From positions 1-56,336 of the forward strand of contig JAGVVD010000055.1 of NCBI GenBank assembly GCA_019135865.1: a stretch of DNA of 56,336 nt. The letters run 5' to 3'. Positions 37,810-56,336 of this stretch are shown here, piece by piece; the stretch's first letter is position 1, and every line of letters starts with the position of its first letter. The DNA is from Elusimicrobiota bacterium. GTDB taxonomy: Bacteria > Elusimicrobiota > Elusimicrobia > Elusimicrobiales > UBA9959. A model generated the notes under the pieces. It searched no databases. It had not been told where the DNA came from and saw nothing but the letters and a program-made list of their open reading frames with translations. The position numbers were made by a program, and so were the translations under genes.

Positions 37810-38526
37810 ATGAAAACCATGAGCGTAGTGATGGCGGCGGGGATGTTCTTCGTCCTGTCGCTCGGCGTATCGGCCGGCGAGCTGAGCGCCATAGCGGTGT
37901 ATGCCAAGGGGAAGGTCGAACTGCGGCGGGCCGGCGACAAGGAGTTCCGCAAGCTCAAGATCAACGACATGATCTACACGGGGGACACCATAAAGACCGG
38001 GCGGCGCTCCCGCGCCTCGCTGGTGATGAAAGGCGGAGCCGAGGTGCGGCTCAACCAGAGCTCGGAGTTCGAGGTGGAGTCCACCGGCCAGGTCCGCGAG
38101 GTCCTTAAGCTCTCGGCCGGGCAGCTCTGGAGCAGGATGCTGCACAAGATGGCCAAGATAAACGTGCGCACGCCCTCGGCCGTCTGCGCGGTGCGCGGAA
38201 CCGAGGCGGACATCGAGCAGCGCAGCCTGCTGACAGTCAAGGTCTACGAAGGACACGTCGACGTGCAGAACGCGGCGGGCATCACCTCGCTGAAGGCCGG
38301 CCAGATGAGCACCGTCGCCGGCGCCGACTCCGCCCCGTCGGCCGCGTCCGAGATGGGCAAGGGGGACGCCGGCACCTGGCAGGACGGCATCAAGGTGAAG
38401 AACATGGACGACTTCGTCAAGCGCCTCATGGACGCCGCCGAGTCGGGCAAGTCCTTCGAGGGCAAGATAAAGACGAAGGACGGCGAGGTCAAGGAAATCA
38501 AGGTGGAAGGGCTGCAGAAGAAGTGA
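37810..38526 (+). CDS. FecR-domain exported protein
   Basis: 238 aa with a signal peptide (MKTMSVVMAAGMFFVLSLGVSA). The FecR beta-roll is clear: VYAKGKVELRRAG near residue 30, then GDTIKTGRRSRASLVMKGGAEVRL. The family's RTPSAVCAVRGTEADIE follows near residue 120, and VKVYEGHVDVQNAAG near residue 146. The C terminus is Lys-rich and helical. In FecA-FecR systems such domains signal to an ECF sigma factor across the membrane. Here there is no transmembrane segment apart from the signal peptide and no sigma factor gene nearby, so it is more likely a periplasmic or surface scaffold. The start follows GGAGG, and 4 bp separate it from the PorV-like gene. Confidence 0.87.
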   Translation: MKTMSVVMAAGMFFVLSLGVSAGELSAIAVYAKGKVELRRAGDKEFRKLKINDMIYTGDTIKTGRRSRASLVMKGGAEVRLNQSSEFEVESTGQVREVLKLSAGQLWSRMLHKMAKINVRTPSAVCAVRGTEADIEQRSLLTVKVYEGHVDVQNAAGITSLKAGQMSTVAGADSAPSAASEMGKGDAGTWQDGIKVKNMDDFVKRLMDAAESGKSFEGKIKTKDGEVKEIKVEGLQKK

Positions 38527-39466: not shown

Positions 39467-39535
39467 GGGACGTCCTCTTCCGGGACGTCCCTCGCCATGG
39501 ACCAGCGGCCGGATACGCCGGCCATTGATCCATGG
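39465..39535 (+). promoter_or_regulatory. Two tandem hairpins in the PorV-fibre gap
   Basis: Hairpin 1: GAGGGACGTCC (39465-39475) with GGACGTCCCTC (39483-39493). Hairpin 2: CCATGGA/TCCATGG (39495-39501, 39529-39535) enclosing GGCCGG/CCGGCC (39507-39523). There is no T tract, so they are not classic terminators. They may stabilise mRNA ends or tune expression of the fibre gene, whose SD (39553) follows at once. Confidence 0.6.
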
Positions 39536-39561
39536 GTTCTATTCGGAAGCACGGAGGATGC

Positions 39562-42500
39562 ATGAAGCGCTTCATCATGGGCGTTATCGCCTATTTCATT
39601 TTCGCCGGGGCGGCCTTCGCCGCCGGACCCCAGGTCATGACCTACCAGGGCCGCCTCAAGGAGAGCGGTCTGCCCGTCACCGGCGACCGGGATATCATCA
39701 TAACCCTGTGCGACGCTCCGTCCGCCGGCAGCTGCTATCCGGCCGTCCCTACGGCCCAGACGGTTTATGTCTCCACCGGCCTTTTCAAGTCCACCTTCAC
39801 GCTGCCCTCCGGGGCGGACCTTTCCACGGGGGAGTGGTATCTGCAGGTGAACGTCGATACCGTCGATCTCCTTCCGCGCGAGAAGCTCACCGCCGTGCCT
39901 TACGCCCTTTATTCCTCCTCCTCCGCCTACGCGGAGAACGCCGCCTCCGCCGTCCTGCGCACCGGAGACACCATGACCGGGCAGCTGACCACCGCCTCGA
40001 CCATAACGGTCAGCGGAGGGGCTTTCAGCGTCGGTGTTTCGACTTTCGTGGTGGAGGGCGGGATAGTAGGTATAAGGACCGCGTCCCCGCAGGCGGCGCT
40101 CGACGTCGTTTCCACCGGCGCGGCGGCGGGCGTGATGGCGCAGCTCTGGCGCGATTCCGGCGGGGTCATCGTCGGCTCGATGAGCGCGACCGGCGACATG
40201 CAGGCCGCGCGGTTCGTCGGCGACGGCTCGGGACTGACGGGCGTCACCGGCGCCACCGGCGACGACCCTAATGCGCTCAAGCTCGCCGGCGGCAATATGA
40301 CCGGGCAGCTGACCACCGCCTCGACCATAACGGTGCAGGGCGCCGCCTTCAGCGTCGGCGGCTCGACGCTGGTGGTGTCCGGCGGCGCGGTAGGCATAGG
40401 GGTTGCCGTCCCCACGGCCGCTTTCCAGGTGAACGGAGACTGGATAATGGGCTCCGATTCCGATTTTCCCGGCGGCGGCGTGGCCGGCTGGCTTCATTCG
40501 CCCAGCGGCGTGCTTTACGAGGGCGGCGGGGTGGCCTGGTCCCACCATTTCGCCGCCTACGGGGGCGGGGATATAGCCAGGTTCGGCGTTTCCGCCGCCA
40601 GCGGCGATACTCCGGACACAAGAGCCGTTATAACGAACGCCGGCTGGTTAGGGGTCGGCACCGGTTCTCCCGCCGCGCTGCTGCACGTCTCCAGCGCCGC
40701 CGGTGAAAGTGGCACGCTCATGGCCGTTTCCACCGGGGCGACGAATCTTTTCTGGGTGACGGGCGGCGGCGCGCACGCCTCCCGGTTCGTCGGCGACGGG
40801 TCCGGTCTTACCAATCTCCCCGTCGGCGCCATCGGCGGCGTCATCCCGGTCGCGCAGGGCGGCACCGGGCTTGCCTCGATAGCCCCGGACAATCTGATAT
40901 ACGCCTCCGCCGCCGATACTTTCGCCGCCGCTCCGCTCAGTCCTTTCGCGAGGACCTTGCTTGACGACGGGACCGTCGGAGAGGCTCGTACCACGCTGGG
41001 CCTGACGATAGGCGCCGACGTGCAGGCTTACGACGCCGACCTCGACGACCTGGCCGACGGTTCGCTGACCGGTTCCAAGGTCGGGCCCGGCGTGCCGGCC
41101 GCCAATATAGCGGACGGGGCCCTGGGCGCGAATGTCGTAGTTTCCTCTCTGGCCGTCGCCTCGGTTCACGAAGGAGCGCTCCTCAATCCCAAGCTCAACA
41201 GCAACGGGGACCAGATGGACGGCTATCTCTGGGTGCAGGGAGGGACCTTCCGGGTGCTCGCGCCCGATTCGCAGCCTTATTCCCTGGCCGCGGGCACCGG
41301 CACGGTCCCCTCGCACCTCCATGTCTCGACCATGGGCGGGGTGGGTCTCGGCACCGTAGTTCCGGAGGCCGTTCTCGACGTGCGCGGGGACATCCTGGCC
41401 CGGACCGACGGTCCCCTGGCCTATCGGTTCCTCAACGCGGCCGGGACGGACGGCGTGGTCATAGACACGTCGAACGGGGCGTTCCGGACGGCCGCGGCGG
41501 CCAGTTACTCGCTCGGCTCCCTGGCCCAGCCCTGGAAGCAGCTCGTCATCGGCGGCGGGGCGGTCTCGTCCATCGACGGCAGTCTCGGTATAGGAACATC
41601 CTCCCCGGCCACCAGGTTCCAGGTGGAGAACGGTTCCATAAGCATAACGGGCTCGGAGCCCGCGCTCCTTTTCGGGTCGGGAGAGACCCGTGTCATATCC
41701 CAGGACACCGACGCCGCCACCGGCGCCGGTATAGAGTTCTCCACCAACGTCTACATAGTGGGCTTCAGTTCGGCCGCGCGCTATTTCGGCGACGGTTCCG
41801 CGCTTACGGGCGTGCTGGGCACGGACCCCGACGCGCTGCCGCTGGCCGGCGGCGTGATGGCCGGCACCCTGGATATGGGCGGGAATTCTCTCGCCGGAGT
41901 GTCCACGATAACCGTGCTCAACGGCAGCGTAGCCATTGTTCCGCCCGGCACGGGGGGGAGCAATTACGGCTACGGCGTATCCATAGGCTCCAATGCCTAC
42001 AATAATTACGGTTCCGGCATAGGGATAGGCTATGGCGCGTACAGCAATTACGACGGCGGCGTGGGCCTGGGATCCGGCGCGTCGAATAATTACATGTACG
42101 GGGTCGGAGTAGGACTGAGCGCCGGGTTCAATTACACCTACGGCACGGGCGTGGGCCGGGACGCGACCAATAATAACAACTACGGCGTCGGCGTCGGCTA
42201 TTACGCCAGGGATAATTACACCTACGGCGTGGGGCTCGGGAACGATGCCAGCTCCAACTACAGTTATGGAGTAGGCGTGGGCAAGCAGGCAAAAAACAAC
42301 AAGTTCTACGCCGTAGGCGTGGGCGCCTATTCGCAGGATAACCAGCCTTACGGCGCGGCGCTGGGCGCTTATTCCTACGCGGCTTCTTCGTCGGTGGCGC
42401 TGGGCTACGGCGCCAGGGCGAACGCCTGGAACAGCGTGGCCATCGGCTCGGGCACGGTGAACAACTCCACCGGCACGGCCAGCTTCGGCATCCTCGGCGT

Positions 42501-45500
42501 CTACACCTCCAGCGGGGTTTACGCCGCCGAGTTCGTCGGCAACGGCTCCGGCCTGACGGGTGTAAGCTCCTCGGATAACACCAAACTTCCGCTCGCGGGC
42601 GGTACGCTGACGGGGAACCTGGCCCTGTCCGCCTCCACTATGTCCATCAACGCCACCGGGTCTTTCGCCAATTTGATCACAGCCGGTCTGACGGGCGGAG
42701 CGACGATGATCATGTACGCCGACCTGTCCTCCGCCGGGCTGTTCACGGTTAACGCCACGGATCGCCTGAAGATCGGCGCCGGTATGACCGAGACCCTTAC
42801 CGTTGCCAACGGCAGGGTCGGCATCAACAACCAGCCCTCGCCGGTGGCCGCGCTCCAGGTCAGCGGCACCACTAAGCTCCTCGCCGATCCCGCCACCGGA
42901 TACCTGCTGGTCGCGGGTTCCGCGGCGCGTCCCGACATGTTCTTTATCTCCAGCAGCGGCGTGGTGGGTGTGGGCGATTTCAGTTCTTCTCCCGCCTCCA
43001 CCGATACCCTGGTGAACATCTCGCCTGTACTCCGGTCCGGCGGCGAGATGGCGGTCGGGCTGCAGGTATACGCGCGCAGCGAGGGCGGCGGGATAGTCGC
43101 CGTCGGAGAGGAGACGGGGATCGTCGCCGCCAACTTCGAAGCGGCGGCCGACGGCGAAGATGCTATGGAGAACCTGGCAGGCCTGCGGGCGCAGATCCGC
43201 CGCGAAGGCGCGGGGAGCGGCGTCGTACAGCAGGCCGCGGCCATCTGGGTGGACGATTTCCACCATGAGGGCGGCGGCACGACGGTCAATACCTACGGTC
43301 TTCGTATCTCCAGCCTGACGGTCGCGGGACAGACCAACGCGCCTTACGCCATATACTCCGAGGACCCCGGCGCGCGCGTATACTTCGCGGGCAATGTCGG
43401 CATCAGTTCCGTGCCGGCTTACGCGCTGGCGGTCTCCAGCGCTACCGGCGACATCCTCTGGGTCTCCAGCCACGCGGTCCACGGTATGAAGTTCATCGGC
43501 GACGGTTCGGAGCTGGCGAATCTGCCGGTCCCGTCGGGCGCGGTGCAGAAGAGCGGCGACTTCATGGGCGGCCAGCTCACCACCGCCTCCACGATCACGG
43601 TGCAGGGCGACGCTTTCAGCGTCGGAGGTCCGGCTTCCTTCGCCATCAAGGGCGGCTCGGTGGCCATCGGCGTAGAGCCGGGATGGGCGCGCCTCCATCT
43701 GCTGGGCGACAATTCCGATAACGGGACTTTCGTGATGGAACAGGTCGGCGACGGCGTGGCGTCGAGGATAATGGCCAGCCGCACCAGGGGGACCCTGGGT
43801 GGAATGACCGCCGTCCAGAACGGCGATGCCATATTCGATATCAGGTACGATGGTCACGACGGCGGCAATAATGTCGATACCGATTGGATAGAGAACGCCA
43901 TTTTCCGCGGCGTGGTCGACGGGGCGGTCTCCGACGGGGTTGTCCCGATAGGTTTCGAGTTCCATACCTCCTCCGCGACCGATTCCGACCTGCACACGCG
44001 CCTGGCCATACGCAGCGACGGCCGGGTGCAGATAGGGACGACGTCCGTTTTCCCTGCCCTGTTGGAGGTCCGGGATTACGCCTCACAGTATCCCTACCTG
44101 CTGGCGCTGGGCACCGGGCCGGTCTCGAGCCAGGTCCTGGTCTCGACCTCGGGGTCCGTCGGCATAGGGGTATCCCCTTCTACCGAGTCGGTGTTCTACG
44201 CGCATAAATCCCACGGGTTCACCGCAGGCGGCGAAGAGGTGGCGCTGGGCATCCAGGCCTCCGCTTACGGCTGGGGTTCCGGGGATATGGGAGAGGAGGG
44301 CGACGCTGTAGCCGGCGCCGACTTCCACGCCAGTGTTCACAGCGACGCTTCCCTGGCTTACCTGGTCGGCATCCATACCGAAATGCGGCGGGAAGATTCG
44401 GACGGAGGCACCGGCGCCGGCACGATAGGCAAGGCCATAGGTCTCTATCTCGAAGAACTGGAAAACAAGGACGTCGGCGCCGGCGCGATAACCGACACCT
44501 ACGGCATCTATATCAGCAGCCTGACGGTCGGCAGGCAGACCAATGCTCCCTACGCGATTTATTCCGAGGACGCCGGCGCGCGCACTTACCTGGCCGGCAA
44601 CCTGGGTATCAGTTCGGCCACGCCTACGGCCGCTCTGGTGGTGTCCAGCGCGGCCGGCAGCTCGGACCTGATGCTGGTCGTTTCCACGGGCTCCTCCATC
44701 GTCTTCGGGGTCAAGGGCAACGGCGAGGTCTATACCGCCGGCAGGTTCATCGGCGACGGTTCGGGTCTGAGCAATATCAACGTTACCGGCGACGGGCTGG
44801 GGTCTCACATCGCGACTACCACGCTGCTGATGGGCCCCTATGGAATAAACACTTCCAGCAGTATCACCGCCGGCGTCTACCAGATAGCCGGCAGCACGGT
44901 GCTGGCTATGCCGCCCGGCCCGGCCAATATCGCGGTGGGCGAGGGAGCGGGCTACGCCAATGCGTCCGGCGGTTACAATCTCTTCGCCGGGGGCGATTCC
45001 GGTCGTTTCACCAGGACGGGCTCCGCCAACACACTCCTGGGCTATCGCGCCGGGTACGGCACGGACGGGGGTTCCTTCTCCAGCTCGACCGTCGTAGGCT
45101 ACGAGGCCGGCTATTTCATGGGGGCCGGGGCGGAAGGCAATACCCTGCTGGGCTGGCGTGCCGGATACGGCATCATCTCCGGCACCGGCAACATCGTCAT
45201 CGGCTACGGCCAGGGTCTGCAGTCGGGGTCCGACAACAACAAGCTGAACATCGGCGGCGTTCTCTTCGGGGACCTGGCCAGGCGGACCATCGGCATCTCC
45301 ACGAGGACCCCCAACGCCGCGCTCGACATCAATTCCTCCACCGAGTCGCCTTTCGCGCTGCTGGTCTCCACGGCTCCGGACAGGCCTATCCTGGCCGTTT
45401 CCACCGCCGGCTATGTCTACGTGGGAGGCGTCCACGATTCCACCATAACGCTCATGTCCGTCGAGGCCCGTCTCGGCGATCCTTTTCCCGGTCAGGAGGA

Positions 45501-46560
45501 TATCAGGGTGGCTTTGAGCGCCCGCGTGGATACCGACGGCAGCGGCTTCGAGGATATCGCGGCCGCCGGGAATTTCGAGGTGGAGATCAGGGAGAACGAC
45601 CTTCTGAATGCCGCGGTAGCCCTGCGCACCGCCGTAGACGCGGAGGATCTCTCCCAGGTAGGGAGAGTGATAGGGCTGCTCGTGGAACGGCCGGAGAATT
45701 CAGGGACGATCCAGCGGACCTTCGGCGTCTACATCGCCACCCAGACGGCCCTGACCGGTACCCAGAGCCAGGTCTACGGACTCTATTCCGAGGACCCCGC
45801 CGCCTATAACTACTTCGGCGGGCGGGTCGGCATAGGCACAAGTTCTCCCCAGGAAGCCCTCCAGATCGCCGAGGGCAATGTCCTGCTGGACGATGACAGG
45901 ACCATCAACTGGGGCCTTCCTCCTGCCCCCTATATAACGGGCAATGATTCCTCCGGACTCCTGGCATTCGGCCTGGCCGGGACGGAGAAGTTCAAGATAC
46001 AGGAGCCGGCGGTGACCGTGCTGAACGCCGACCTCGTCATCTCCACCAACTCCGGAAGCCGCGGCATAGTGTTCCAGGATAAGACGGTACAGACCTCGGC
46101 CCCGCCTAAAACCGTCCTCATCTACAAGCCCGCGGACACCAATATAACAAGCGACGACGTGCCGGATCTCGATCCGGACCTGCAATTCAATGTCGGCCCC
46201 GACGAAAAGTGGCAGTTCGAGGCGGTCCTTTACGCTCATACGAACGATACCGGGTTCAATACGGACTTCCGCGCCGGGCTTATCGGACCCGCCGAGAATC
46301 TGCTGCGCTGGGATTATTCCTTCTACGCGGCGGACGGTGTGGCTCAGACCTCCGGCGGCGTCCTTAACGGATATGGCGTCCGGCCGGTGGACTGGACGGC
46401 CGGCGTGATAGCCTCCGGGACCCGTCTCGTCATCCGCGGCACGATAGATTGCGCCGCCGCCGGGGGCCCCTTCGGTATTACATGGTCCCAGAATCTCGCG
46501 GGACCTTTCACTACCACGGTACTGGCCGGCAGTTATCTTAAGGCGCAGAGAGTGCGGTAA
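39562..46560 (+). CDS. Giant exported fibre-like protein with YadA-type roll
   Basis: 2332 aa. Signal peptide to about residue 21, then an N-terminal module starting PQVMTYQGRLKESGLPV and closing with EKLTAVPYALYSSS. The long stalk reuses short units. 'GDGSGLTGV'-type turns occur six times, 'TTASTITVQG.AFSVGGS' four times, and 'VGIGTASPQAAL'-type strands many times. A 12 x 14-residue roll spans 801-968. About 1787-1897 is a second Gly-rich section (NTLLGYRAGYG). Three related modules of about 100 residues end QTNAPYAIYSEDPGAR-like. A globular C terminus (about 2190-2332) follows GIVFQDKTVQTSA. All this is typical of trimeric surface or tail fibres. ATG 39562 is chosen for its SD GGAGG and signal peptide. 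Confidence 0.85.
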   Translation: MKRFIMGVIAYFIFAGAAFAAGPQVMTYQGRLKESGLPVTGDRDIIITLCDAPSAGSCYPAVPTAQTVYVSTGLFKSTFTLPSGADLSTGEWYLQVNVDTVDLLPREKLTAVPYALYSSSSAYAENAASAVLRTGDTMTGQLTTASTITVSGGAFSVGVSTFVVEGGIVGIRTASPQAALDVVSTGAAAGVMAQLWRDSGGVIVGSMSATGDMQAARFVGDGSGLTGVTGATGDDPNALKLAGGNMTGQLTTASTITVQGAAFSVGGSTLVVSGGAVGIGVAVPTAAFQVNGDWIMGSDSDFPGGGVAGWLHSPSGVLYEGGGVAWSHHFAAYGGGDIARFGVSAASGDTPDTRAVITNAGWLGVGTGSPAALLHVSSAAGESGTLMAVSTGATNLFWVTGGGAHASRFVGDGSGLTNLPVGAIGGVIPVAQGGTGLASIAPDNLIYASAADTFAAAPLSPFARTLLDDGTVGEARTTLGLTIGADVQAYDADLDDLADGSLTGSKVGPGVPAANIADGALGANVVVSSLAVASVHEGALLNPKLNSNGDQMDGYLWVQGGTFRVLAPDSQPYSLAAGTGTVPSHLHVSTMGGVGLGTVVPEAVLDVRGDILARTDGPLAYRFLNAAGTDGVVIDTSNGAFRTAAAASYSLGSLAQPWKQLVIGGGAVSSIDGSLGIGTSSPATRFQVENGSISITGSEPALLFGSGETRVISQDTDAATGAGIEFSTNVYIVGFSSAARYFGDGSALTGVLGTDPDALPLAGGVMAGTLDMGGNSLAGVSTITVLNGSVAIVPPGTGGSNYGYGVSIGSNAYNNYGSGIGIGYGAYSNYDGGVGLGSGASNNYMYGVGVGLSAGFNYTYGTGVGRDATNNNNYGVGVGYYARDNYTYGVGLGNDASSNYSYGVGVGKQAKNNKFYAVGVGAYSQDNQPYGAALGAYSYAASSSVALGYGARANAWNSVAIGSGTVNNSTGTASFGILGVYTSSGVYAAEFVGNGSGLTGVSSSDNTKLPLAGGTLTGNLALSASTMSINATGSFANLITAGLTGGATMIMYADLSSAGLFTVNATDRLKIGAGMTETLTVANGRVGINNQPSPVAALQVSGTTKLLADPATGYLLVAGSAARPDMFFISSSGVVGVGDFSSSPASTDTLVNISPVLRSGGEMAVGLQVYARSEGGGIVAVGEETGIVAANFEAAADGEDAMENLAGLRAQIRREGAGSGVVQQAAAIWVDDFHHEGGGTTVNTYGLRISSLTVAGQTNAPYAIYSEDPGARVYFAGNVGISSVPAYALAVSSATGDILWVSSHAVHGMKFIGDGSELANLPVPSGAVQKSGDFMGGQLTTASTITVQGDAFSVGGPASFAIKGGSVAIGVEPGWARLHLLGDNSDNGTFVMEQVGDGVASRIMASRTRGTLGGMTAVQNGDAIFDIRYDGHDGGNNVDTDWIENAIFRGVVDGAVSDGVVPIGFEFHTSSATDSDLHTRLAIRSDGRVQIGTTSVFPALLEVRDYASQYPYLLALGTGPVSSQVLVSTSGSVGIGVSPSTESVFYAHKSHGFTAGGEEVALGIQASAYGWGSGDMGEEGDAVAGADFHASVHSDASLAYLVGIHTEMRREDSDGGTGAGTIGKAIGLYLEELENKDVGAGAITDTYGIYISSLTVGRQTNAPYAIYSEDAGARTYLAGNLGISSATPTAALVVSSAAGSSDLMLVVSTGSSIVFGVKGNGEVYTAGRFIGDGSGLSNINVTGDGLGSHIATTTLLMGPYGINTSSSITAGVYQIAGSTVLAMPPGPANIAVGEGAGYANASGGYNLFAGGDSGRFTRTGSANTLLGYRAGYGTDGGSFSSSTVVGYEAGYFMGAGAEGNTLLGWRAGYGIISGTGNIVIGYGQGLQSGSDNNKLNIGGVLFGDLARRTIGISTRTPNAALDINSSTESPFALLVSTAPDRPILAVSTAGYVYVGGVHDSTITLMSVEARLGDPFPGQEDIRVALSARVDTDGSGFEDIAAAGNFEVEIRENDLLNAAVALRTAVDAEDLSQVGRVIGLLVERPENSGTIQRTFGVYIATQTALTGTQSQVYGLYSEDPAAYNYFGGRVGIGTSSPQEALQIAEGNVLLDDDRTINWGLPPAPYITGNDSSGLLAFGLAGTEKFKIQEPAVTVLNADLVISTNSGSRGIVFQDKTVQTSAPPKTVLIYKPADTNITSDDVPDLDPDLQFNVGPDEKWQFEAVLYAHTNDTGFNTDFRAGLIGPAENLLRWDYSFYAADGVAQTSGGVLNGYGVRPVDWTAGVIASGTRLVIRGTIDCAAAGGPFGITWSQNLAGPFTTTVLAGSYLKAQRVR
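41962..42465 (+). repeat. Twelve 14-residue repeats inside the fibre gene
   Basis: The encoded units read NYGYGVSIGSNAYN, NYGSGIGIGYGAYS, NYDGGVGLGSGASN and so on, to AWNSVAIGSGTVNN, with no gap or insertion. The pattern NY-x-Y-G-V-G-V-G-x-x-A matches the 14-residue left-handed roll of YadA heads (NSVAIG type). DNA-level identity is only moderate, so it is an old array. Confidence 0.85.
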
Positions 46561-46605: not shown

Positions 46606-49600
46606 ATGAGAAGGAACGCAACGATAGATGCTTTGTCCGCCGGCGCGCTTTTCTGCGCGCTGGCCGCAGCATGGGCCGTTCCCGTCGCCGCCGGGCAGAA
46701 GGCCGGGGGGATATATACCATCGTGGACGACGCGGTGGGGGGGCTGGCCGCGACGGAGCTGGCAGGGGGGGTCTATTCCGGCGACGGCTTCATCGGCAAC
46801 CTGGCCTCCGAGAAACTGTCGGGCGGGGCTTTCGAGGCGCAGTCCGGTTTTCATTCCCACGCCGTTTCCACTCCCTCGGCCTTCGCTTATGTCTCGGTGT
46901 CCAGCGACGCTTTCGACCTTTCCTGGCTGTACCTGCACGATCCGGGCATGGCCGACTACCTGGTACTGGTCTCCACGACGGGGACGGCGGCCGGGCACTC
47001 CTTCTCCTCCGCCACCTACGCCCTGGGTGCGGGGTTCGCCGGCCTTACCCCCAACACCACCTATTTCGCCTTCCTGCGCGCCGGCTACCTGGAAAGCGAT
47101 TTTTCGGAGTACGTGACCACCTCGGCCGTGACCACGCTGAGCATGCCGGTCTCGTCGGACACCTTCGTCTTCGGCAACGTCGGCCCGTTCTCGGCCAATC
47201 TCAAGTTCTCGGCCTTCGGCAATCCCGGGCCTTCGCAGAGCGCGGCCTGGACCGCCGCCGCGCCGCTGCCGGCGGCGCTCTACGGCCACGCTTCGGCCGT
47301 CATCTCCAGCAGGTCCTTCGTCAGCGGCGGTTACGACGGGACGCGTTTCAGCAGCGCGGTATACATGTCGGAACTGGAGCCCGACGGCGGCGGAGGCGGG
47401 TGGACGCCGGCCGGCTGGCTCCCCGAGGGCCGCTACGGCCACGCCATGGCGGCCGCCGGGGGCAGGCTCTACGTCATAGGCGGCTACGACGAAGGCGGTA
47501 CGGCGCTGGAGGTGTGGTCGGCCGACGCGAGCACTCCTTCGCATCTTTCCGAATGGCGGGCGGAGACCTCTTTCCCCTACGGAGTCTATCTGCACGCCGC
47601 GGTATCCCATAACGGTTCCATATACGTGCTGGGCGGTTTCGACGGCACCGCCCCGGTCTCCTCCGTCTATACCGCGCGTCCGGGCCCGGACGGCGCCATC
47701 GCCTCCTGGGAGCAGGAGCCGGCGGGGCTTCCCGCTCCGCTTTACGCCTTCGGCGCGGCCGAACTGGGCGGACGGCTCTACATAAGCGGCGGCAAGGACG
47801 GAGGCTCGGCCAGGTCGTGGGTCTGGAGCTCCGCTATCGACGCGGACGGGACTCTCGACGACGGGGGCTGGACCGCCGCCGGGTCGCTGCCGGCGCCGCG
47901 CTTCGCCCATACGATGACCGCTCTGGGCGACAGGCTGGTGGTGGCCGGCGGCAGCAACGGCTTCGCCGCCCAGCCCGCGGTGCTCGCGTCCGCGGCGGAC
48001 GGCGCCGGGGCCCTTTCCGCCTGGGGCCTGGCCTATGCGCTTCCCGAGGGCAGGCAGTACCACGCCGCGGTCAAGGCCGGGGGCAGGCTTTACCTGCACG
48101 GCGGGAACAACGGCGCCGCCGCTTCGGCGCTTTCCTGGTCCGCCTCTTTTTCCGGTACCGAGTACCAGGCGCGGGTCTGCGACGTCACGGGCTGCGCGGG
48201 GAGCTTCGAATATTCTTCGCCGTGGACGAGCGATTTCGCCTGGGAATTCCCGGCGCTGCTGCCCGACGGGGACTGGTTCTTCCAGGTGCGTTCGCGCAAC
48301 TGGCTCGGACAGGAAACGGCCTGGTCGGCCGAGGTCTCCACCCATACCTACGCCGCGCAGCCCTCCTCCGCGCCGTGGAGCGCGGTCGGCGTCTCCAGCC
48401 TTACCGCCAACTGGGATACCCTCGGCAATCCCGCCTCCGTCGATTATTACTGCGAGATCTCCAGTCACCCGGACTTCTCCTGGCCGGCCGGCAGCATGAC
48501 CACCGACAAGAGTTCGGCGGCTTTCGCCGGCCTGCTGCCCAGCGTGACCTATTACGCCCGCGTCAGGGCGGTGGACGGCCTGGGCCGCTATACGGGCTTC
48601 TCCGCGATAGGTCCGGGCAAGACCCTTTTCGACCCGGCCCTGGACGTGAACGATCCTTATTTCGAGGACCATCAGCCGGACGATCTTGTCTGGCGCAGCA
48701 GCAATACCTTCGCCTACGACGTGGATATTTTCGACGACGGCGGCTCCATGCTCTCGTTCTTCGAAGTGCGCGTGGCCACCGATACCGGCGGGGCGGGGGA
48801 TATGAGCGGCTGGGTGACCGCGGTCAGCGCCATAAACGCCAATGAATACACCGGGGACTGGTCCCTGCCCTGGGACGTCTGGGACGCGCTGCCGGAAGGC
48901 GCGACCGGCTACGTCTCGGCGCGGGCTTACGACGGTGTCGCCCGTTCCAGTACCGCCGTCGATCTCTTCGCGGTCCTCAAGGACACCACGGCCCCGGCCA
49001 TCGCGCTGCTGCACGGCTCCACGCCTGCCTGGCAGGACCAGTACCCGGGCGATCCTTCGGCCGATTTCTCCGACTATGTCTCCGGCCTGTCTAAATTGCA
49101 GTACAGCGTCAGCCCGCTGGCCCTTTCCGGCGACGCTTCGGCCGTACCGTGGACCGATATCGGGGCCTTCTCCCAGGGGGACAAGGAGGCCCTCGCCGTC
49201 TCCTGGACCTACGATTTCACGAAGCTCTCCAACGCGACCACCAACTACTTCAGCCTCAGGGCCGTGGACGTGGCGGGCGGCACCCGCACCGTTACCGACG
49301 CCTTCTACGTGCTCAAGAACGTGGCGGGTCCGGTGGTCACCATCAGCACGCCGACGGGGGTGTACCTTTCCAGTTTCACCCTGGTGCGCGGCTACAATAC
49401 CGAGACGGACGGCAGGACCGTCATGCAGACGCAGGTCTTCGTCCGCGACAGGACTACGGGACTCTACTGGGACGGTTCCGCTTTCATCTCCGCTTCCCGC
49501 TTCTGGCACGTGGCCTCCGGGACCTATCCTTTCGTTTTCGAGCCGGCCAATATGAGCCTCGCGCAGGGGCATCAGTACGAGGCCGTCGCCCGCTCCTCCG

Positions 49601-51213
49601 ATTCGCTGGGGGATTTCTCTCAGGCCTTGGCGACGGCCGCCTTTACCTACGACGGGCTGCCCCCGGCGGCGGGCGTCATCTTCCCGGCGGACGGGTCCGC
49701 GGCCGATTCGCCGCTCCGCATCAACGGCACGGCCTCCGACTCCGTCTCCAGCGTCAGTTCAGTGCGCCTGGCGCTCAAGCGCGTTTCGGACGGCCTCTGG
49801 TGGGACGGGGTCTCCTGGCAGGCCGCCCCGACGGAACTGACGGCGGGGACCACCGCCGAATGGAGCTTCTCCTTCAACTCCATACTCCGGGCCAATCTGG
49901 CGCACCAGGCCAGCTACTACGCCACCGTCCTGGCGCATGACTCCGCTTACCCCAAGAACGAGGGGAAGTTCTTCGTTCACGGGTCCACTTTCGTCTACCG
50001 CGACGTGACCGCGCCGGGCGCCGTCGCCGACCTGGCCGCTTCGCGGGGGAGCCTGCCGGGAACTATACGCCTGGAATGGACCTCGCCTGGCGACGACGGA
50101 GCGGCGGGCCTGTTCCCCGCGGGTTCGTACGCCGTGCACAGGGCCACCTGGGCGGGAGCCTCCTTCTCCACCGCTTCGGCGCAGATCTCCTTCTCCACTT
50201 CCGGGGTCGCCGCGGGTTCGGCCGCCGGCTGGACGGCGGCGGGCCTGCTGCCCTCGGCCTCCTACTATTTCTCGGTCTGGGCGCGCGACGACGCCGGGAA
50301 CTGGTCTGCCGCCTCCAATGTCGCCGGAGCCGAGACCTCCCAGGCCAGTCCCGGTTTTATAAGCGGCGCGGTGCGGCAGTCCGACGGCTCCGCCATACAG
50401 GGAGTACTGGTGGACGTCTTCGGCGCCGACGGACTGCTCAAAGCCGGCGACAGCACCGACGCTTTCGGCGCCTACGAGGTCACCGGGCTGGACATAGGTG
50501 ACTTCACCGTGCGCGCCACCTGGTCGGCCGACGACATAGTCAGTTATGTTTCCAAGGACGCCATCCCATCGGGCACGCTGGGCGTGGATTTCGCGCTGAG
50601 CATCTCCTACCAGCTGGCCTCGGTCTCCGGCACGATACCGGCGGCCGCCGGCGCGCTCTCCGCGAAAGGCGGCATCCGGCCGGCGGACGCCGGCGGCACG
50701 GGCCTCTGGGTGGAAATTTACAAGCTGGGCCGGCTGGTGGCCCGCGCCGAAGCGGACTCCGCCGGGCGTTTCTCGGTCTCCAACCTGCTGCCCGGCACCT
50801 ATTCGCTGCGCGCTTATAACGGCAGCGAGTACACCGACCCGGTGACCGTCAAGCTGGCGCAGGGACAGGACTATTTCTTCCGCCCGGCCTGGGCCGCCCT
50901 GGCGAGGGACAGCGTATTCGCCTATCCCAATCCGGCCCGCACCCAGGCCTATATACATTTCCACACCGGCCTGGGACTGGCGGGAATACGCGCCGACATA
51001 GCGGTATTCGACCTGACGGGCCGGCTGGTCAAACGCTTCACCGCCGCCGACGCGGAGCCCGATCCCGCCTACGCGGGCGGCGGCTACAGGGTGACCTGGG
51101 ACCTGGAACGGGACCGGGTCGCGCCCGGCGTATACTTCTATTCGGTGGAAGCGGAGGGCGTGGCGGGAGAGAAGGCCGAGAAAGTCGTGAGGAAATTGGC
51201 GGTAATAAGATAA
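46606..51213 (+). CDS. Exported FN3 protein with inserted kelch propeller and Por/FlgD-type tail
   Basis: 1535 aa with a signal peptide. It starts with FN3 at about 85-185. A second FN3 begins near 187 and breaks off at SAFGNPGPSQ. Six kelch repeats follow (about 215-510; for example GRYGHAMAAAGGRLYVIGGY). The FN3 then resumes with TEYQARVCDVTGCAGS and ends VRSRNWLGQETAWS. More FN3 and Ig-like blocks run to about 1240. A carboxypeptidase-regulatory-type domain starts near 1250 and a sorting-type tail near 1439 (FAYPNPARTQAYIHF ... APGVYFYSVEAEG). The ends and domain order match the protein at 32217, so the two are paralogues; the kelch part is extra. The ATG has no good SD. It is probably surface-exposed and ligand-binding. 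Confidence 0.85.
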   Translation: MRRNATIDALSAGALFCALAAAWAVPVAAGQKAGGIYTIVDDAVGGLAATELAGGVYSGDGFIGNLASEKLSGGAFEAQSGFHSHAVSTPSAFAYVSVSSDAFDLSWLYLHDPGMADYLVLVSTTGTAAGHSFSSATYALGAGFAGLTPNTTYFAFLRAGYLESDFSEYVTTSAVTTLSMPVSSDTFVFGNVGPFSANLKFSAFGNPGPSQSAAWTAAAPLPAALYGHASAVISSRSFVSGGYDGTRFSSAVYMSELEPDGGGGGWTPAGWLPEGRYGHAMAAAGGRLYVIGGYDEGGTALEVWSADASTPSHLSEWRAETSFPYGVYLHAAVSHNGSIYVLGGFDGTAPVSSVYTARPGPDGAIASWEQEPAGLPAPLYAFGAAELGGRLYISGGKDGGSARSWVWSSAIDADGTLDDGGWTAAGSLPAPRFAHTMTALGDRLVVAGGSNGFAAQPAVLASAADGAGALSAWGLAYALPEGRQYHAAVKAGGRLYLHGGNNGAAASALSWSASFSGTEYQARVCDVTGCAGSFEYSSPWTSDFAWEFPALLPDGDWFFQVRSRNWLGQETAWSAEVSTHTYAAQPSSAPWSAVGVSSLTANWDTLGNPASVDYYCEISSHPDFSWPAGSMTTDKSSAAFAGLLPSVTYYARVRAVDGLGRYTGFSAIGPGKTLFDPALDVNDPYFEDHQPDDLVWRSSNTFAYDVDIFDDGGSMLSFFEVRVATDTGGAGDMSGWVTAVSAINANEYTGDWSLPWDVWDALPEGATGYVSARAYDGVARSSTAVDLFAVLKDTTAPAIALLHGSTPAWQDQYPGDPSADFSDYVSGLSKLQYSVSPLALSGDASAVPWTDIGAFSQGDKEALAVSWTYDFTKLSNATTNYFSLRAVDVAGGTRTVTDAFYVLKNVAGPVVTISTPTGVYLSSFTLVRGYNTETDGRTVMQTQVFVRDRTTGLYWDGSAFISASRFWHVASGTYPFVFEPANMSLAQGHQYEAVARSSDSLGDFSQALATAAFTYDGLPPAAGVIFPADGSAADSPLRINGTASDSVSSVSSVRLALKRVSDGLWWDGVSWQAAPTELTAGTTAEWSFSFNSILRANLAHQASYYATVLAHDSAYPKNEGKFFVHGSTFVYRDVTAPGAVADLAASRGSLPGTIRLEWTSPGDDGAAGLFPAGSYAVHRATWAGASFSTASAQISFSTSGVAAGSAAGWTAAGLLPSASYYFSVWARDDAGNWSAASNVAGAETSQASPGFISGAVRQSDGSAIQGVLVDVFGADGLLKAGDSTDAFGAYEVTGLDIGDFTVRATWSADDIVSYVSKDAIPSGTLGVDFALSISYQLASVSGTIPAAAGALSAKGGIRPADAGGTGLWVEIYKLGRLVARAEADSAGRFSVSNLLPGTYSLRAYNGSEYTDPVTVKLAQGQDYFFRPAWAALARDSVFAYPNPARTQAYIHFHTGLGLAGIRADIAVFDLTGRLVKRFTAADAEPDPAYAGGGYRVTWDLERDRVAPGVYFYSVEAEGVAGEKAEKVVRKLAVIR

Positions 51214-51243: not shown

Positions 51244-53151
51244 ATGAAAAGGATACACGTTATATTCGGATTGCTGCTGGCGGCCTCCGCGCCGGCCCTG
51301 GCCAACCAGGCCGTCAGCCTGCAGTTCACGGTGGCGGCCCCGGACCCCGTCATGGCCGGGGACGAGGTCGTGTTCCAGACCCTGGTCGTCAATACCGGCG
51401 CGGCTCCCTGGCGCGGGGGGAACTACTACTGGGTGGCCGAAGTTTACGCGCTCGACGGCGGCGAGCGGCGCTTCATGGCCAAGACGGATACCCTGACCCC
51501 TCCGGAGGACGTGCCGGCCGGCGGCGCGGCCGGCGCCAGGCTGCCCTTCACGGTGCCCGACAATCTCAAGAACACCCGCCTGCTCTACCGCGTCTTCCTG
51601 ATACTCGACGGGCGCCGCATACTCGAGACCGACTATAAGGGCTTCGCCGTCATCGAGAAGGAGTTCCGGCCGCCGCCGCCGGAAGATTTCAAGGTCGGCG
51701 GCGACGTCACCTTCAGCTACCGCAATTCCAGCTCCGACGGCTGGGACAATCACCAGGGCATCACCTCGGCCAACATCGTCGGGAAGGTGAAGAGCTCCTC
51801 GTTCCTTTTCAACAGTTATGTGGTCCACACCCGGCGCCGTCCGCTGGACCCCACGGTCCTTCTGCTCAATTTCTACGCGCCCTGGGGGACGCTCGGGGTG
51901 GGCGATATCTCGCCCTCGCTGACCCCGCTGAGCATGGAGGGCCAGGGTATGCGCGGCGTCTCCTTCGAACGGCAGCGCGAGCGCCTCTCCCTGACCGCCC
52001 TGGCCGGCCGCACCGTGGAGGCCGAGGACCCCGACGGGCTGAGCGCGGGCCGCTTCGCCCGCTACAGCGGCGGAGGCAAGGTCTCCTATGAGCTGACCGA
52101 CGACCTCAAACTGACCGCGGACGCGGTGATAACCCGCGACGACCGGTATTCCATCAGCCCCTCCACTTCCGCCGCGCTGACGCCCGAAGGGAACATGGTC
52201 TACGGCGGCGCCGCCGAGTGGACCTTCGCCGAAGGCTTCACCTACGCCGGCGAAATGCAGTTCGCGTCCTACAAGCCGGACGCCTCCTCCTCCGCCGGGG
52301 CCACCAGCGGTTCCGCCCTGCGCAACGAACTGCGCTACCGGGGTTCCCTGCTCTCGGCGCGCGCCGCCTTCAGCCGGATAGCGGCGGGCTTCGCCTCGCT
52401 GTCGAGCCCCGCCGTCATCCCCGACCGGCAGAACCAGGACGCCGAACTGACGGTCTACGCCTCGGACAGGCTCACGCTCTCCGGCTCCTATAACAGTTAC
52501 ACGGACAACCTGGAGAACGACCCGGCCAAGACCAGGACGACCCAGACCCAGACGGGCCTCTCCGGCGCGCTGAAACTTTTCAGGGCCACGCTGGTCAATC
52601 TCTCGCTGATGAACAACTCGAGCGTGGGCGAGCCCAGCACCGTGCAGGACAACCAGACCACGACGATGAACCTGACCGTCACGCAGCCGCTCCGGGACCA
52701 TACGCTCAACTTCGGGATGCAGACCAGCGAGTTCACCGACAATACCGGCCTCTCGCACGACCTGTCCTCTTCCCTGCTCTCGCTGAGCGGGGCCTTCCGG
52801 CTGAGCTCGCGGCTCTCGGCCTCGGCCGGCTTCGTCAGTTCGGGTTCGGAGGACCAGGTGGACTCCTCGAAGACGGAGAACACCTCGCTGACCGCCAATC
52901 TCACCTACGCGCTGCCCGCCAGGGCGCTGGCTTTCCAGCTCTGGGGCACCATGAACTCGGGGGAGAGCGATTCCCCGGTCTCCCCGTCGGAAACCTCCAC
53001 GCTGACCGTGAACCTGGAGACGATCTGGCTCAAGAGCAGGGTCTCCAAGTTCGTTTTCGGCCTGGGCGTTTCGTCGCGCACCGACAAGCTCGAACCCGCC
53101 AACGACCTCAGCCAGCTGACCGTGCTGACCCGCTATAATTACTCGTTCTGA
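51244..53151 (+). CDS. Outer-membrane beta-barrel protein
   Basis: 635 aa with a signal peptide (IFGLLLAASAPALA). Residues 20-150 form an Ig-like periplasmic domain (FTVAAPDPVMAGDEVVFQTL ... RLLYRVFLILDGRRILE). From about 155 to the end, short amphipathic strands alternate with polar loops (KVSYELTDDLKLTADAVITR). The C terminus TVLTRYNYSF ends in Phe after aromatic residues at alternate positions, the usual BAM insertion signal. No substrate is indicated. It is the last gene of the surface run, 30 bp after the kelch protein, and a terminator follows. It may be an export channel or anchor for the neighbouring giant proteins; that is inference only. Confidence 0.8.
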   Translation: MKRIHVIFGLLLAASAPALANQAVSLQFTVAAPDPVMAGDEVVFQTLVVNTGAAPWRGGNYYWVAEVYALDGGERRFMAKTDTLTPPEDVPAGGAAGARLPFTVPDNLKNTRLLYRVFLILDGRRILETDYKGFAVIEKEFRPPPPEDFKVGGDVTFSYRNSSSDGWDNHQGITSANIVGKVKSSSFLFNSYVVHTRRRPLDPTVLLLNFYAPWGTLGVGDISPSLTPLSMEGQGMRGVSFERQRERLSLTALAGRTVEAEDPDGLSAGRFARYSGGGKVSYELTDDLKLTADAVITRDDRYSISPSTSAALTPEGNMVYGGAAEWTFAEGFTYAGEMQFASYKPDASSSAGATSGSALRNELRYRGSLLSARAAFSRIAAGFASLSSPAVIPDRQNQDAELTVYASDRLTLSGSYNSYTDNLENDPAKTRTTQTQTGLSGALKLFRATLVNLSLMNNSSVGEPSTVQDNQTTTMNLTVTQPLRDHTLNFGMQTSEFTDNTGLSHDLSSSLLSLSGAFRLSSRLSASAGFVSSGSEDQVDSSKTENTSLTANLTYALPARALAFQLWGTMNSGESDSPVSPSETSTLTVNLETIWLKSRVSKFVFGLGVSSRTDKLEPANDLSQLTVLTRYNYSF

Positions 53152-53209: not shown

Positions 53210-54097
53210 TCAGTTCCCGGCCTGCCCGCGGGCGGCGGGAACTTTCTCGATCTCGTCGAGGGCCGCGAGGTATTCCCCGAGCTGTTCGTCGCCGGGAGAG
53301 GCTTTGAGGGCCTGCTGCCAGGCCCGGCGGGCTTTGCGGTAGTCCTTCAGCTGGAGGTAGGTGGAGCCCAGCCGCTTGAGGGAGAGGGCGTCCCCCGGTT
53401 CGAGCATGAGTATATACTCCAGTTCGCGTACCGCCAGGTTGAACTTGGCGTCGTAGATATACTGCAGGGCGGTCTCGCGCTTATGGTCGAGTATCGGCAC
53501 CCCGGGAAGACGCGTGTCGCGCAGCTTGTAGTCCGGGTGAAGTTTCTCCATCGCCGACACCAGCGCGGCCAGCCGCTTGTCCGACGGGGCCAGTTCGGCC
53601 GCGTAGCGCAGCGCGTCGTAGGCGAAGGGATGGTCCTCCTCCTCCCCGGCGTAATAGACCAGGCCCAGCGCCGCGGCGTTCCAGGCCCTGTTCGAGTAAG
53701 GCTTCTCCCTGACGGCCAGCAGGATGTCCCTGAGCCGTTCCTGCAGGCGCAGGAAGAGCGGGTTCTTCGGGTCGGTGGCCAGCAGTTTCTCGACGGTGAG
53801 CAGCGCGTCGCCCCACTTGCCGGCGGTCAGCTGCCGGGCATAGGCTTTCTTCTCCTTCTCCCAGATCTCACCCATGCGGCGGCGCGCCTCGCCTATCATG
53901 TTCTTTGCCGTGACCTGGTCGGGGTCCAGGCGCAGCACCAGGTTCCAGTTCTCTATGGCCTTGACCAGGTCCCCGGCCACGTAGTACTCGAAGGCCTTGT
54001 CGTAATACTTTTTCAGCTGCTCGGGGTCGGGAGGCGTCTGGGCGAAAACGGACGAGGCCGGCAGGAGGAGGGCGAAAGCGAGCTGCTTCAGTTTCAT
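53210..54097 (-). CDS. Exported TPR protein
   Basis: 295 aa with a signal peptide (MKLKQLAFALLLPASSVFAQ). TPR-like helical pairs are at about 30-65 (YYDKAFEYYVAGDLVKAIENWNLVLRLDP), about 85-115 and about 225-285 (LKRLGSTYLQLKDYRKARRAWQQALKASP). The middle has a less regular segment with NAAALGLVYYAGEEEDHPFAYDALRYA. TPR repeats bind other proteins. Its ATG overlaps the MotB-like stop as ATGA, so it is the last gene of the MotA/MotB operon and a likely periplasmic partner of that motor, comparable in position to TPR proteins beside Tol/Bat-type systems. Confidence 0.85.
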   Translation of the reverse strand: MKLKQLAFALLLPASSVFAQTPPDPEQLKKYYDKAFEYYVAGDLVKAIENWNLVLRLDPDQVTAKNMIGEARRRMGEIWEKEKKAYARQLTAGKWGDALLTVEKLLATDPKNPLFLRLQERLRDILLAVREKPYSNRAWNAAALGLVYYAGEEEDHPFAYDALRYAAELAPSDKRLAALVSAMEKLHPDYKLRDTRLPGVPILDHKRETALQYIYDAKFNLAVRELEYILMLEPGDALSLKRLGSTYLQLKDYRKARRAWQQALKASPGDEQLGEYLAALDEIEKVPAARGQAGN

Positions 54098-54738
54098 GAG
54101 GTCTTCTCCACGGTCTGCTCTTCCCGGAGGACGGTTATCTCTATCCGGCGGTTGAGCGCGCGGCCTTCCTCCGTGTCGTTGGGGGCGGCCGGGCGGTACT
54201 CCCCGTAACCGAAGGCTCCGAAACGCTCCGGCGGCACTCCCTCGGACGCGAGGAACTCGATGACGGAAAAGGCGCGCATCAGGGAGAGTTCCCTGTTCGA
54301 GGCGAATCTGCCGCCTATGACGCGCGCGGCGTCGGTGTGGCCGTCCACCAGTATCTGGTTGGCCATGGCCTTGAGCCCGGCGGCCACCGGGGCCAGCGTT
54401 TCGCGGGCCCCGGGGCGGAGCTTCGCCGAGCCGGAATCGAAAAGGATCGGGGCGGGGAAGGTAAGTTTTATCATGGAGGTGGTCATCTCCATCTTCAGCG
54501 TACCTTCCTCGATCTGCTTCTTGAGCTCGCGTTCCATGCGGCCCGCGGCCTCGGCGCGGCGGAACTTCTCCTCGGCCTCCGCGACGCCGAGTTCCTCCTG
54601 CATGATGGCCACGGCCTTCTCCATCTCTATGTTCATGGCGTAGGAGAAGCCGTAGAGCGCGAGGAACAGGATGACCAGGCAGGTCATCAGGTCCGCGAAA
54701 GGGATCATCCAGAGCTGGGTCTTCTTGGTGTCTATCAT
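54094..54738 (-). CDS. MotB-like OmpA-domain protein, second copy
   Basis: 214 aa. One N-terminal helix has the proton-channel Asp, LWMIPFADLMTCLVILFLAL (Asp 16), followed by a coiled-coil linker (EKFRRAEAAGRMERELKKQI). An OmpA/MotB peptidoglycan-binding domain ends the protein: ILFDSGSAKLRPGARETL, ILVDGHTDAARVIG and GRALNRRIEITV. With a MotA partner such proteins form ion-driven stators anchored to the cell wall. It differs strongly from the neighbouring MotB-like protein, so the pair may form a heterodimer. ATGA overlaps join it to both neighbours. No flagellar genes are present. Confidence 0.87.
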   Translation of the reverse strand: MIDTKKTQLWMIPFADLMTCLVILFLALYGFSYAMNIEMEKAVAIMQEELGVAEAEEKFRRAEAAGRMERELKKQIEEGTLKMEMTTSMIKLTFPAPILFDSGSAKLRPGARETLAPVAAGLKAMANQILVDGHTDAARVIGGRFASNRELSLMRAFSVIEFLASEGVPPERFGAFGYGEYRPAAPNDTEEGRALNRRIEITVLREEQTVEKTS

Positions 54739-55409
54739 TCGCGCTTCACCACGATCTCTATGCGCCTGTTGAGGGCGCGGCCCTCGCGGGTGGAATTGTC
54801 GGCGACGGGCCTGTGCTCGCCGTAGGCGGCCGCCACCAGCCGGTCCTCGGGGAGGTAGCCCCTGCCGGCTATGTAATCGAGCACGGCGCTGGCCCGGGCG
54901 GCCGAGAGCTCCCAGTTGCTGGCGTGCTCCCCGCTCTTTATCGGCACGCTGTCGGTATGCCCTTCCACGACGACGTCGTTCTTTTTCAGTTCGGAGAGCA
55001 GGCGGCCCACGGCGTCGAGGGTCTCGCGGGCGCCGGGGCTGAGCCGCGCTCCTCCCGACGGGAAGAGTATCGGGGCCGCGATATTGATGCGTATCTTGGT
55101 GTCGGTGACCTGGACTTCGGCCATGTCCTTGAGGCCGGACCTCTCCAGTTCCCGTTTCAGTTCGTTGGCGATGTCGGTCTCCAGTATCCGCTGTATGACC
55201 TCCTCGGCCTTTTTCTCCTTTTCCCGCGTCTCGTCCAGTTCCTGGTTGAACCCCTCTATGAAACCCGCCTGCACTTCGGGGTTCAGCGTGAAGACGTAGA
55301 GTATCAGGAAGAACAGCATCAGGTTGGTCATGATGTCCGAGAGCACCACCAGCCAGAGGGGGTTGTCCTGGGTCCTGGTGCTGGAATAGCGCTTGATGAA
55401 GGACTTCAT
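54735..55409 (-). CDS. MotB-like OmpA-domain protein, first copy
   Basis: 224 aa. The single helix NPLWLVVLSDIMTNLMLFFL carries the channel Asp at residue 25. The linker is charged and helical (TREKEKKAEEVIQRILETDI). The OmpA/MotB domain shows ILFPSGGARLSPGARETLDA, DVVVEGHTDSVPIKSGEH, NWELSAARASAVLDYI and GRALNRRIEIVVKRE. I chose ATG 55409 (MKSFIKRYSS), which overlaps the MotA stop as ATGA; the frame extends 27 codons upstream but that part is inside the MotA gene. Together with MotA it should form a peptidoglycan-anchored stator or a related force-transducing complex. Confidence 0.88.
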   Translation of the reverse strand: MKSFIKRYSSTRTQDNPLWLVVLSDIMTNLMLFFLILYVFTLNPEVQAGFIEGFNQELDETREKEKKAEEVIQRILETDIANELKRELERSGLKDMAEVQVTDTKIRINIAAPILFPSGGARLSPGARETLDAVGRLLSELKKNDVVVEGHTDSVPIKSGEHASNWELSAARASAVLDYIAGRGYLPEDRLVAAAYGEHRPVADNSTREGRALNRRIEIVVKRE

Positions 55410-56191
55410 TTCTTGCCGGCGGCGGCCAGGCGCGCCTTGCGGCGCAGGGCCAGGGAGAGATAGCCCTCGAGCTTCTTGGAGACCAGCCACGGCACGTCGC
55501 CGCTATAGACGGCCAGCACGCCCTTGGCGATGATCTCGCGGCTGAGTATGTCCTCGTCGGAGTAGTAGTTGAGCTTGTTGGAGATGGGCAGGAAAATGAA
55601 GTTGGCCGAGAAGATGCCGTAGAACGACGCGGTCATGGCTATGGCCATGGAGGAGCCCATCATCTGCGGGTTCTGGATGTTGCGCAGCACCTGCACGACG
55701 CCGACCAGCGTGCCCAGCAGGCCGAAGATGGGCGCGAAGGTGCCGGCCGCCGAGAAGATATTGGACTGCTGCTGGTGGCGCAGGCGGGTGGTGTTGATGT
55801 CGTGCTCCATGCGCTCGCGCAGCACCTCGGCGTCCACGCCGTCGAGCATCATCTGGCAGGAATCCGCCAGGAAGGGATGGGGGAGCCTGGGCACTTCCGG
55901 CGAGAGCGCCTCCAGGCCGTTGCGCCGCGCGAGCTCCGCCATCCTGACGATGGAGGCGATCAGGACGCTTATCGGGGGACGCTTGGGGGGGAAGACCACC
56001 AGTTTCATCGAGGACCAGCTGAACTTGAGCGCCTCCCAGGGATAGGCGATCATGATGGACCCCAGCGTGCCGCCGAAGATCAGGATTATGGCCTCGGGGT
56101 TCAGCAGGAACCTGAGCATGCCCGCCATGAAGAGGACCGTGAAGATGACCCCGGTGCCCAGCAGGGCGCCCATCACTGTCATTAAGTCCAT
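55406..56191 (-). CDS. MotA-type proton channel subunit
   Basis: 261 aa, the size of MotA and larger than TolQ/ExbB. It begins MDLMTVMGALLGTGVIFTVLFM with helices 1 and 2 (about 5-55). A cytoplasmic loop follows, with MAELARRNGLEALSPE and the family's ERMEHDINTTRLRHQQQ. Helices 3 and 4 are about 145-205, with TFAPIFGLLGTLVGVVQVL and AIAMTASFYGIFSANFIFLP, the MotA/TolQ signature. It forms the ring around MotB-like helices and couples ion flow to movement. First of a four-gene set (MotA, MotB-like, MotB-like, TPR). An AGGAG lies 12 bases before the ATG, rather far, so the exact start may be a few codons off. Confidence 0.9.
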   Translation of the reverse strand: MDLMTVMGALLGTGVIFTVLFMAGMLRFLLNPEAIILIFGGTLGSIMIAYPWEALKFSWSSMKLVVFPPKRPPISVLIASIVRMAELARRNGLEALSPEVPRLPHPFLADSCQMMLDGVDAEVLRERMEHDINTTRLRHQQQSNIFSAAGTFAPIFGLLGTLVGVVQVLRNIQNPQMMGSSMAIAMTASFYGIFSANFIFLPISNKLNYYSDEDILSREIIAKGVLAVYSGDVPWLVSKKLEGYLSLALRRKARLAAAGKK

Positions 56192-56215: not shown

Positions 56216-56336
56216 TCAGGGTTTCGGCGCTCCGGCCGGTTTGCCCGCCGGAGACGGAGCGGCGGCGGCCGGCTTCGGCGCCGGCGCGGGTGCGGTCCCC
56301 GGGCGGGCCGCTCCCGGCGCCGGGCGGGGGGCGGCC
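56216..56336 (-). CDS. C-terminal end of a Pro/Ala-rich protein (partial)
   Basis: The minus-strand frame is open from the right edge to a TGA at 56216-56218, 24 bp before the MotA start. The tail is almost only Pro, Ala, Gly and Lys (ending SPAGKPAGAPKP). Position and spacing suggest the gene upstream of MotA in the same operon. The body lies outside the window, so no function can be given. Such tails are common in envelope proteins, but a run of GC-rich DNA can also stay open by chance. Confidence 0.45.
   Translation of the reverse strand, partial: AAPRPAPGAARPGTAPAPAPKPAAAAPSPAGKPAGAPKP

Follow-up and report, generated by a model that had tools for sequence, protein, structure and literature searches.

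The locus belongs to the Elusimicrobiota, a little-studied bacterial phylum mostly without flagella, and raises the question of what a flagellar-type MotA with two dissimilar MotB partners would drive in such a cell. The window analysed here is the whole 56,336-nucleotide stretch of DNA, which is an entire contig (C8). The machine encoded by the operon probably works at the cell surface without turning a flagellum.

A five-gene operon, probably divided between two contigs

Four genes of the operon lie complete on the reverse strand of the window. The motA gene (55406..56191; 261 aa) encodes a flagellar-type stator A subunit with a match to Pfam PF01618 (MotA_ExbB) of 86.7 bits, and a PDB search with the MotA family alignment gave flagellar MotA as the top match (E 2.6e-74). 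The motB1 gene (54735..55409; 224 aa) encodes a protein with the channel Asp and an OmpA-type peptidoglycan (PG)-binding domain. The second MotB paralogue, motB2 (54094..54738; 214 aa), has a channel Asp here that is gone in other lineages. The last gene (53210..54097; 295 aa) encodes a periplasmic TPR protein with a signal-like N-terminus and Pfam TPR matches. A 4-base ATGA overlap joins motA to motB1, motB1 to motB2, and motB2 to the TPR gene. Pfam scores for motB1 and motB2 were 28.3 and 31.9 bits for MotB_plug and 71.9 and 63.5 bits for OmpA, and the channel Asp residues stand in the contexts LSDIMT and FADLMT. The first-pass annotation had described four genes with ATGA overlaps and two MotB proteins that keep both the channel Asp and the PG-binding domain; this was right but incomplete, with a fifth gene lying upstream.

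Because the window is the entire contig, the operon is cut on its 5' side. Only the 3' end of the first gene, fliFG (a FliF-RBM3/FliG fusion; 56216..56335, reverse strand), is present, and the FliG-type rotor was invisible to the first-pass annotation because the contig ends there. The remainder of fliFG is on contig C52 (L015:1-1422, reverse strand), whose first 22 bases are identical to the last 22 of C8. A FliG-type frame crosses the junction, with its stop at 56218-56216, 24 bases before motA. The 22-base overlap and the relatives in which these genes are contiguous suggest that C52 and C8 adjoin.

In FliFG a single chain joins the RBM3 ring domain of FliF, via a membrane helix, to the middle and C-terminal domains of FliG. 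Its predicted topology runs from a signal-like N-terminus through a periplasmic domain and a long membrane helix to a cytoplasmic part. The AlphaFold model (21 relatives, L051 sequence; pLDDT 75.5, pTM 0.39) matched FliF RBM3 (6scn_K; Z 11.4, rmsd 2.2, 98 aligned), Salmonella C-ring FliG (8umx_B; Z 14.9, rmsd 8.8, 214 aligned) and a single FliG C-terminal domain (8ucs_H; Z 11.6, rmsd 1.9, 85 aligned). The high rmsd of the full-length FliG matches probably reflects domain arrangement. Sequence comparison of the FliFG family gave E 1.3e-47 for FliG and E 3.8e-4 for FliF. The structural matches of the model did not extend to the N-terminal domain of FliG or to RBM1/2 of FliF.

The gene order FliFG-MotA-MotB1-MotB2-TPR was conserved across Elusimicrobiota and some genomes labelled Nitrospirota. 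A scan of named records with the MotA alignment confirmed 105 stretches, of which the best 80 were used; these loci were chosen by MotA and are hence a non-random set, although their neighbouring genes played no part in the choice. The best 80 of 105 were mostly Elusimicrobia and Endomicrobia MAGs and included four loci labelled Nitrospirae, Nitrospirota or Thermodesulfovibrio (L153, L163, L165 and L167), Bacterium BMS3Bbin05 (L170), Clostridia (L147 and L148) and several plain "bacterium" entries; the taxon labels of such MAGs may be wrong. Within these 80, FliFG was immediately upstream of motA at 63 of the 63 loci with enough sequence, and two MotB genes followed motA at 66 of 67, the sole exception being a run of N. 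A TPR-type gene lay downstream at 53 of 62 loci with enough sequence and was not found at the other nine. Pooling named and unnamed loci and removing duplicates left 91 loci. The order recurs in these 91 non-redundant loci, so the operon is more than a chance grouping. An apparent single-chain fusion of MotB1 and MotB2 in L076 (and in L143, the same record) was discounted because the two are joined only by a run of N.

The MotB pair and the rotor-stator contact

Exactly two MotB domains were found in 84 of the 91 loci, and the remaining seven (L057, L077, L081, L103, L139, L162 and L166) reach a contig end. On a FastTree phylogeny, 79 of 84 second MotBs formed one clade (support 0.976) with no first MotB within it; the second MotBs outside this clade were those of L151, L152, L158, L160 and L169. 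The first-pass reading of two dissimilar MotBs is supported.

The channel residue was scored in 82 pairs, with L152 and L160 left out. The residues of the first and second MotB, respectively, were D and D in 59 pairs, D and N in 12, D and T in six, D and A in two, C and D in two, and G and D in one. Exactly one Asp was therefore lost in 23 of 82 pairs, 20 times in MotB2 and three times in MotB1, and no pair had lost both. Mapped by parsimony onto the MotA tree, the 20 MotB2 and three MotB1 losses correspond to four and two changes. The PG-binding motif was matched in 19 of the 23 Asp-less MotBs, and the L163 protein, one of the four without a match, is truncated to 151 aa. The absence of double losses is by itself a weak argument because there were so few MotB1 losses; independent loss predicts fewer than one. 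The force of the argument for pairing comes from the retention of an Asp-less MotB beside an Asp-bearing partner. From this pattern MotB1 and MotB2 seem to act as one heterodimeric pair, and the heterodimer suggested by the first-pass annotation gains support from the one-sided loss.

PMC12505986 gives R90/D288-D289 and E98/R281 as MotA-FliG contacts. At the MotA R90 position, R or K was present in 87 of 90 sequences, and the FliG D289 position was acidic (E) in 73 of 79 FliFGs. The D288 position was Q in 66 FliFGs and E in 13. The R281 position was never R in the 79 FliFGs (G in 74, A in four, V in one), and the MotA E98 position was E in only seven of 90. In the alignments, the R90/D289 contact is broadly kept and the E98/R281 pair is lost, so torque transfer must differ. 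Among the controls, the single flagellar FliG found in flagellated members of the phylum retains R281, and two flagellar MotAs of the phylum have Q at position 98. Because of the latter, the joint disappearance of E98 and R281 is weaker evidence that rotor and stator changed together.

Flagellar genes and neighbouring surface genes

Profile searches of the genome that carries the window gave no match to the FliF family (PF01514), FlhA (PF00771) or FliM/N (PF01052), with positive controls in each case. The absence of FliM/N means that there is no known switch. The same genome encodes two FliG_C proteins, one of which is the first gene of the operon, and a second MotA and MotB set. The first-pass description of the operon as being without flagellar genes thus holds for FlhA, the FliF family and FliM/N, and fails for FliG_C and for the additional stator set.

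Across the phylum, FlhA was found in five of 340 genomes, and FliFG-type proteins were found in 146 of 340 (E 1e-5, both paralogue classes pooled). None of the 73 genomes classed as having the short FliFG contained FlhA; this class is a rough E-value cut at about 1e-32 or better that leaves out G187 and the operon-bearing genomes of family f19 (L079-L081). G187 has FlhA, a partial FliFG match and the barrel gene described below. Six genomes were reached through loci with the labels Nitrospirae/Nitrospirota, Clostridia or Bacterium BMS3Bbin05, and FlhA was found in one of them (G341).

Two genes on the forward strand lead up to the operon. The nearer, at 51244..53151, encodes an Ig-like N-terminus followed by a predicted 26-strand outer-membrane barrel; it converges on the operon and is assigned to the system by linkage. 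The other, at 46606..51213, encodes a large kelch/Fn3 surface protein with a T9SS-like C-terminal domain, a probable cargo or adhesin, relatives of which occur near the operon at other loci. The barrel model (pLDDT 86.4) had MtrB as its top structural match (6r2q_B; Z 22.7, rmsd 4.0, 450 aligned). A haem conduit was considered for this MtrB-like barrel, which contains no CxxCH; the motif was also absent from the TPR protein, MotB1, the 1535-aa surface protein and a 567-aa protein.

The barrel gene was present in 71 of 340 genomes, 67 with the short FliFG and four without, and six of the 73 short-FliFG genomes lacked the barrel (Fisher p 1e-58, a value that ignores kinship). In 43 of the 67 genomes with both, barrel and short FliFG were at most 10 kb apart on one contig. 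Their relative orientation varies among lineages, which favours functional linkage over one inherited arrangement. The link to neighbouring surface genes that the first-pass annotation had drawn from position is strengthened by this co-occurrence. Contig C54 of this genome encodes a PorV-TPR fusion, and its TPR half is similar to the TPR proteins of relatives (22-32% identity), a hint that the TPR protein works toward the outer membrane.

A proposed surface motor and its competitors

The operon is best read as a flagellum-independent, ion-driven rotary motor that powers a surface process, with a probability of roughly 0.6. This proposal builds on the observed gene content, conservation, domain folds and pattern of channel Asp loss. 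The rotor ring would be formed by the FliF-RBM3/TM/FliG chimera, with its FliG part in the cytoplasm and its RBM3 part forming an S-ring-like periplasmic ring. The stator would consist of five MotA subunits around a MotB1-MotB2 heterodimer, anchored to peptidoglycan by its two OmpA domains. Ion passage via the channel Asp would rotate MotA, and the turning MotA would drive the FliG face of the FliFG ring. Motion may then be relayed to surface proteins by the RBM3 ring in the periplasm together with the TPR protein and the outer-membrane barrel. The likely output would be the movement or presentation of adhesins (gliding, surface adhesion), and energising type IX-like export is a possible further one. 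Open PMC papers yielded no motility or biochemical work on these bacteria.

A different possibility, though a doubtful one, is that the motor energises type IX-like secretion in the stead of GldLM, with surface movement secondary or absent. Several parts of such a pathway are present. The window encodes a PorV/PorQ family protein (38531-39463; 140.6 bits, cut-off 90) and a protein with the CTD sorting domain TIGR04183 at its tail (32061-36050; 36.3 bits, cut-off 23), PorV-like genes adjoin the operon in family f1, and an SprA-like protein is encoded in the same genome (TIGR04189; 118.9 bits, E 1.2e-34). The SprA-like score is, however, below the curated cut-off of 200, and its gene is on a different contig (C43). 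PF14349 (SprA) was silent in this genome and is uninformative because it was silent in the controls as well. In addition, no T9SS motor is known to need a FliG ring, which counts against secretion as the main output. The outer-membrane barrel, the periplasmic TPR protein and the OmpA domains would also suit force transfer across the envelope by a Tol/Exb-like energiser that pulls on outer-membrane proteins and leaves the FliG ring unturned. That arrangement is decidedly unlikely: MotA is of the flagellar type, a separate ExbB/TolQ-like set is present on contig C18, and the FliG domain is retained with its acidic D289 position.

The two MotBs could instead belong to alternative stators, in which MotA5 would surround either a MotB1 or a MotB2 homodimer, depending on conditions. 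Retention of both Asp residues in 59 of 82 scored pairs, the window included, agrees with this arrangement, which is nonetheless unlikely given that the Asp-less partner stays in the operon in 23 of 82 pairs, mostly with its PG-binding motif intact, and that a homodimer of an Asp-less MotB should not conduct. It is very improbable that the operon is the remnant of a lost flagellum or supplies stators for an unseen one. Its parts are flagellar homologues, and PMC12199754 gives 11% of non-motile species as having a rotor protein without filament proteins. Against decay, the operon is ordered and open in 91 non-redundant loci, and a conserved FliFG fusion would be unlike it; the negative PF01514, FlhA and FliM/N searches of this genome likewise disfavour a hidden flagellum.

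The proposed surface motor resembles three known systems in different respects. With the bacterial flagellar motor it shares a flagellar-type MotA, the MotB plug and OmpA domain, and the FliG M-C and FliF RBM3 folds. It differs in its reduced and fused FliF and FliG, in having two MotBs per MotA, in its linkage to an outer-membrane barrel and surface proteins, and in the lack of a FliM/N or FlhA match in its genome; with no FliF family match either, the operon does not qualify as a flagellum. Like Myxococcus AglRQS, to which the first-pass annotation had compared it, the operon has one MotA-type and two MotB-type proteins and no flagellum. AglR is classed with TolQ (CCD3) in PMC12505986, AglQ/S carry TolR-like PG-binding domains according to PMC9389320, and a text search of PMC9120999 gave no mention of FliG. 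Unlike AglRQS, which is of the TolQ/TolR type (GIT), the operon has a flagellar-type MotA, OmpA-type MotBs and a FliG rotor. The likeness therefore stands as a functional one, and the operon is not an AglRQS member. A third resemblance is to GldLM and the type IX system of Bacteroidota, with which it may share a cargo pathway of CTD proteins, the PorV family and an SprA-like translocon. GldLM is described in PMC13104615 as non-homologous to MotAB, and the motor of the operon is of the MotAB/FliG type. It may work as AglRQS and GldLM do, by applying ion-driven force at the cell surface.

No published description of the FliFG-MotA-MotB1-MotB2-TPR operon was found in searches confined to open PMC papers. 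Whether AglQ and AglS act as a heterodimer is stated to be unknown in PMC9389320, and the one-partner Asp loss offers a natural test of heterodimer formation between two MotB-type proteins that share one MotA. It also bears on whether a single ion site suffices for a 5:2 motor. The operon suggests that surface motility or secretion has gone unrecognised in uncultured phyla. On a bolder and less probable reading, a flagellar rotor and stator core working alone would be a new class of rotary machine, with an asymmetric MotB heterodimer and single-Asp conduction in some lineages, which would drive an outer-membrane/adhesin system and take the place of GldLM in a type IX-like pathway. Such a motor may preserve, or re-create, a motor module that predates its joining to the export apparatus.

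A second cluster in the same genome, on C54, shares the FliFG fusion, MotA and MotB with the operon of the window. It differs in having a single MotB, a coiled-coil protein, a FliFG with a C-terminal TPR, and the PorV-TPR fusion.

Predicted surface proteins and outer-membrane barrel

Within the window, a predicted surface protein of 2342 aa (39532-46560) matched the Chlorovirus glycoprotein repeat and had no match to the families of the T9SS-like C-terminal sorting domain (CTD). A FecR-domain protein (37810-38526) showed similarity to the Leptospira adhesin families Lsa33/Lsa19, and its gene was adjoined by a PorV/PorQ family gene. A 26-strand barrel with an MtrB-like fold was predicted by modeling at 51244-53151; no CxxCH motif was found in the barrel or in the neighbors checked (TPR, MotB1, the 1535-aa surface protein, and the 567-aa protein).

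SprA/Sov-like protein

Contig C43 of the same genome encoded a 1794-aa SprA/Sov-like protein (positions 5643-11027 of stretch L179, minus strand; G000:C43:6000-25000), adjoined by two genes that we take to resemble LptF/LptG. This arrangement suggests a type IX-like translocon in Elusimicrobiota.

FlhA and a second FliG-based cluster

FlhA was present in 5 of the 340 genomes of the phylum, which is mostly without flagella, and in some of these genomes the stretches around FlhA (among L171, L172, L180-L187) contained flagellar-type FliG or MotAB. Besides the window operon, the genome carried a further FliG-based gene cluster on contig C54 (positions 7784-17999 of stretch L011, G000:C54:8000-26000), comprised of a CTD-like protein, a PorV-TPR fusion, FliFG with C-terminal TPR, a 787-aa coiled coil, MotA, a single MotB, and a lipoprotein.
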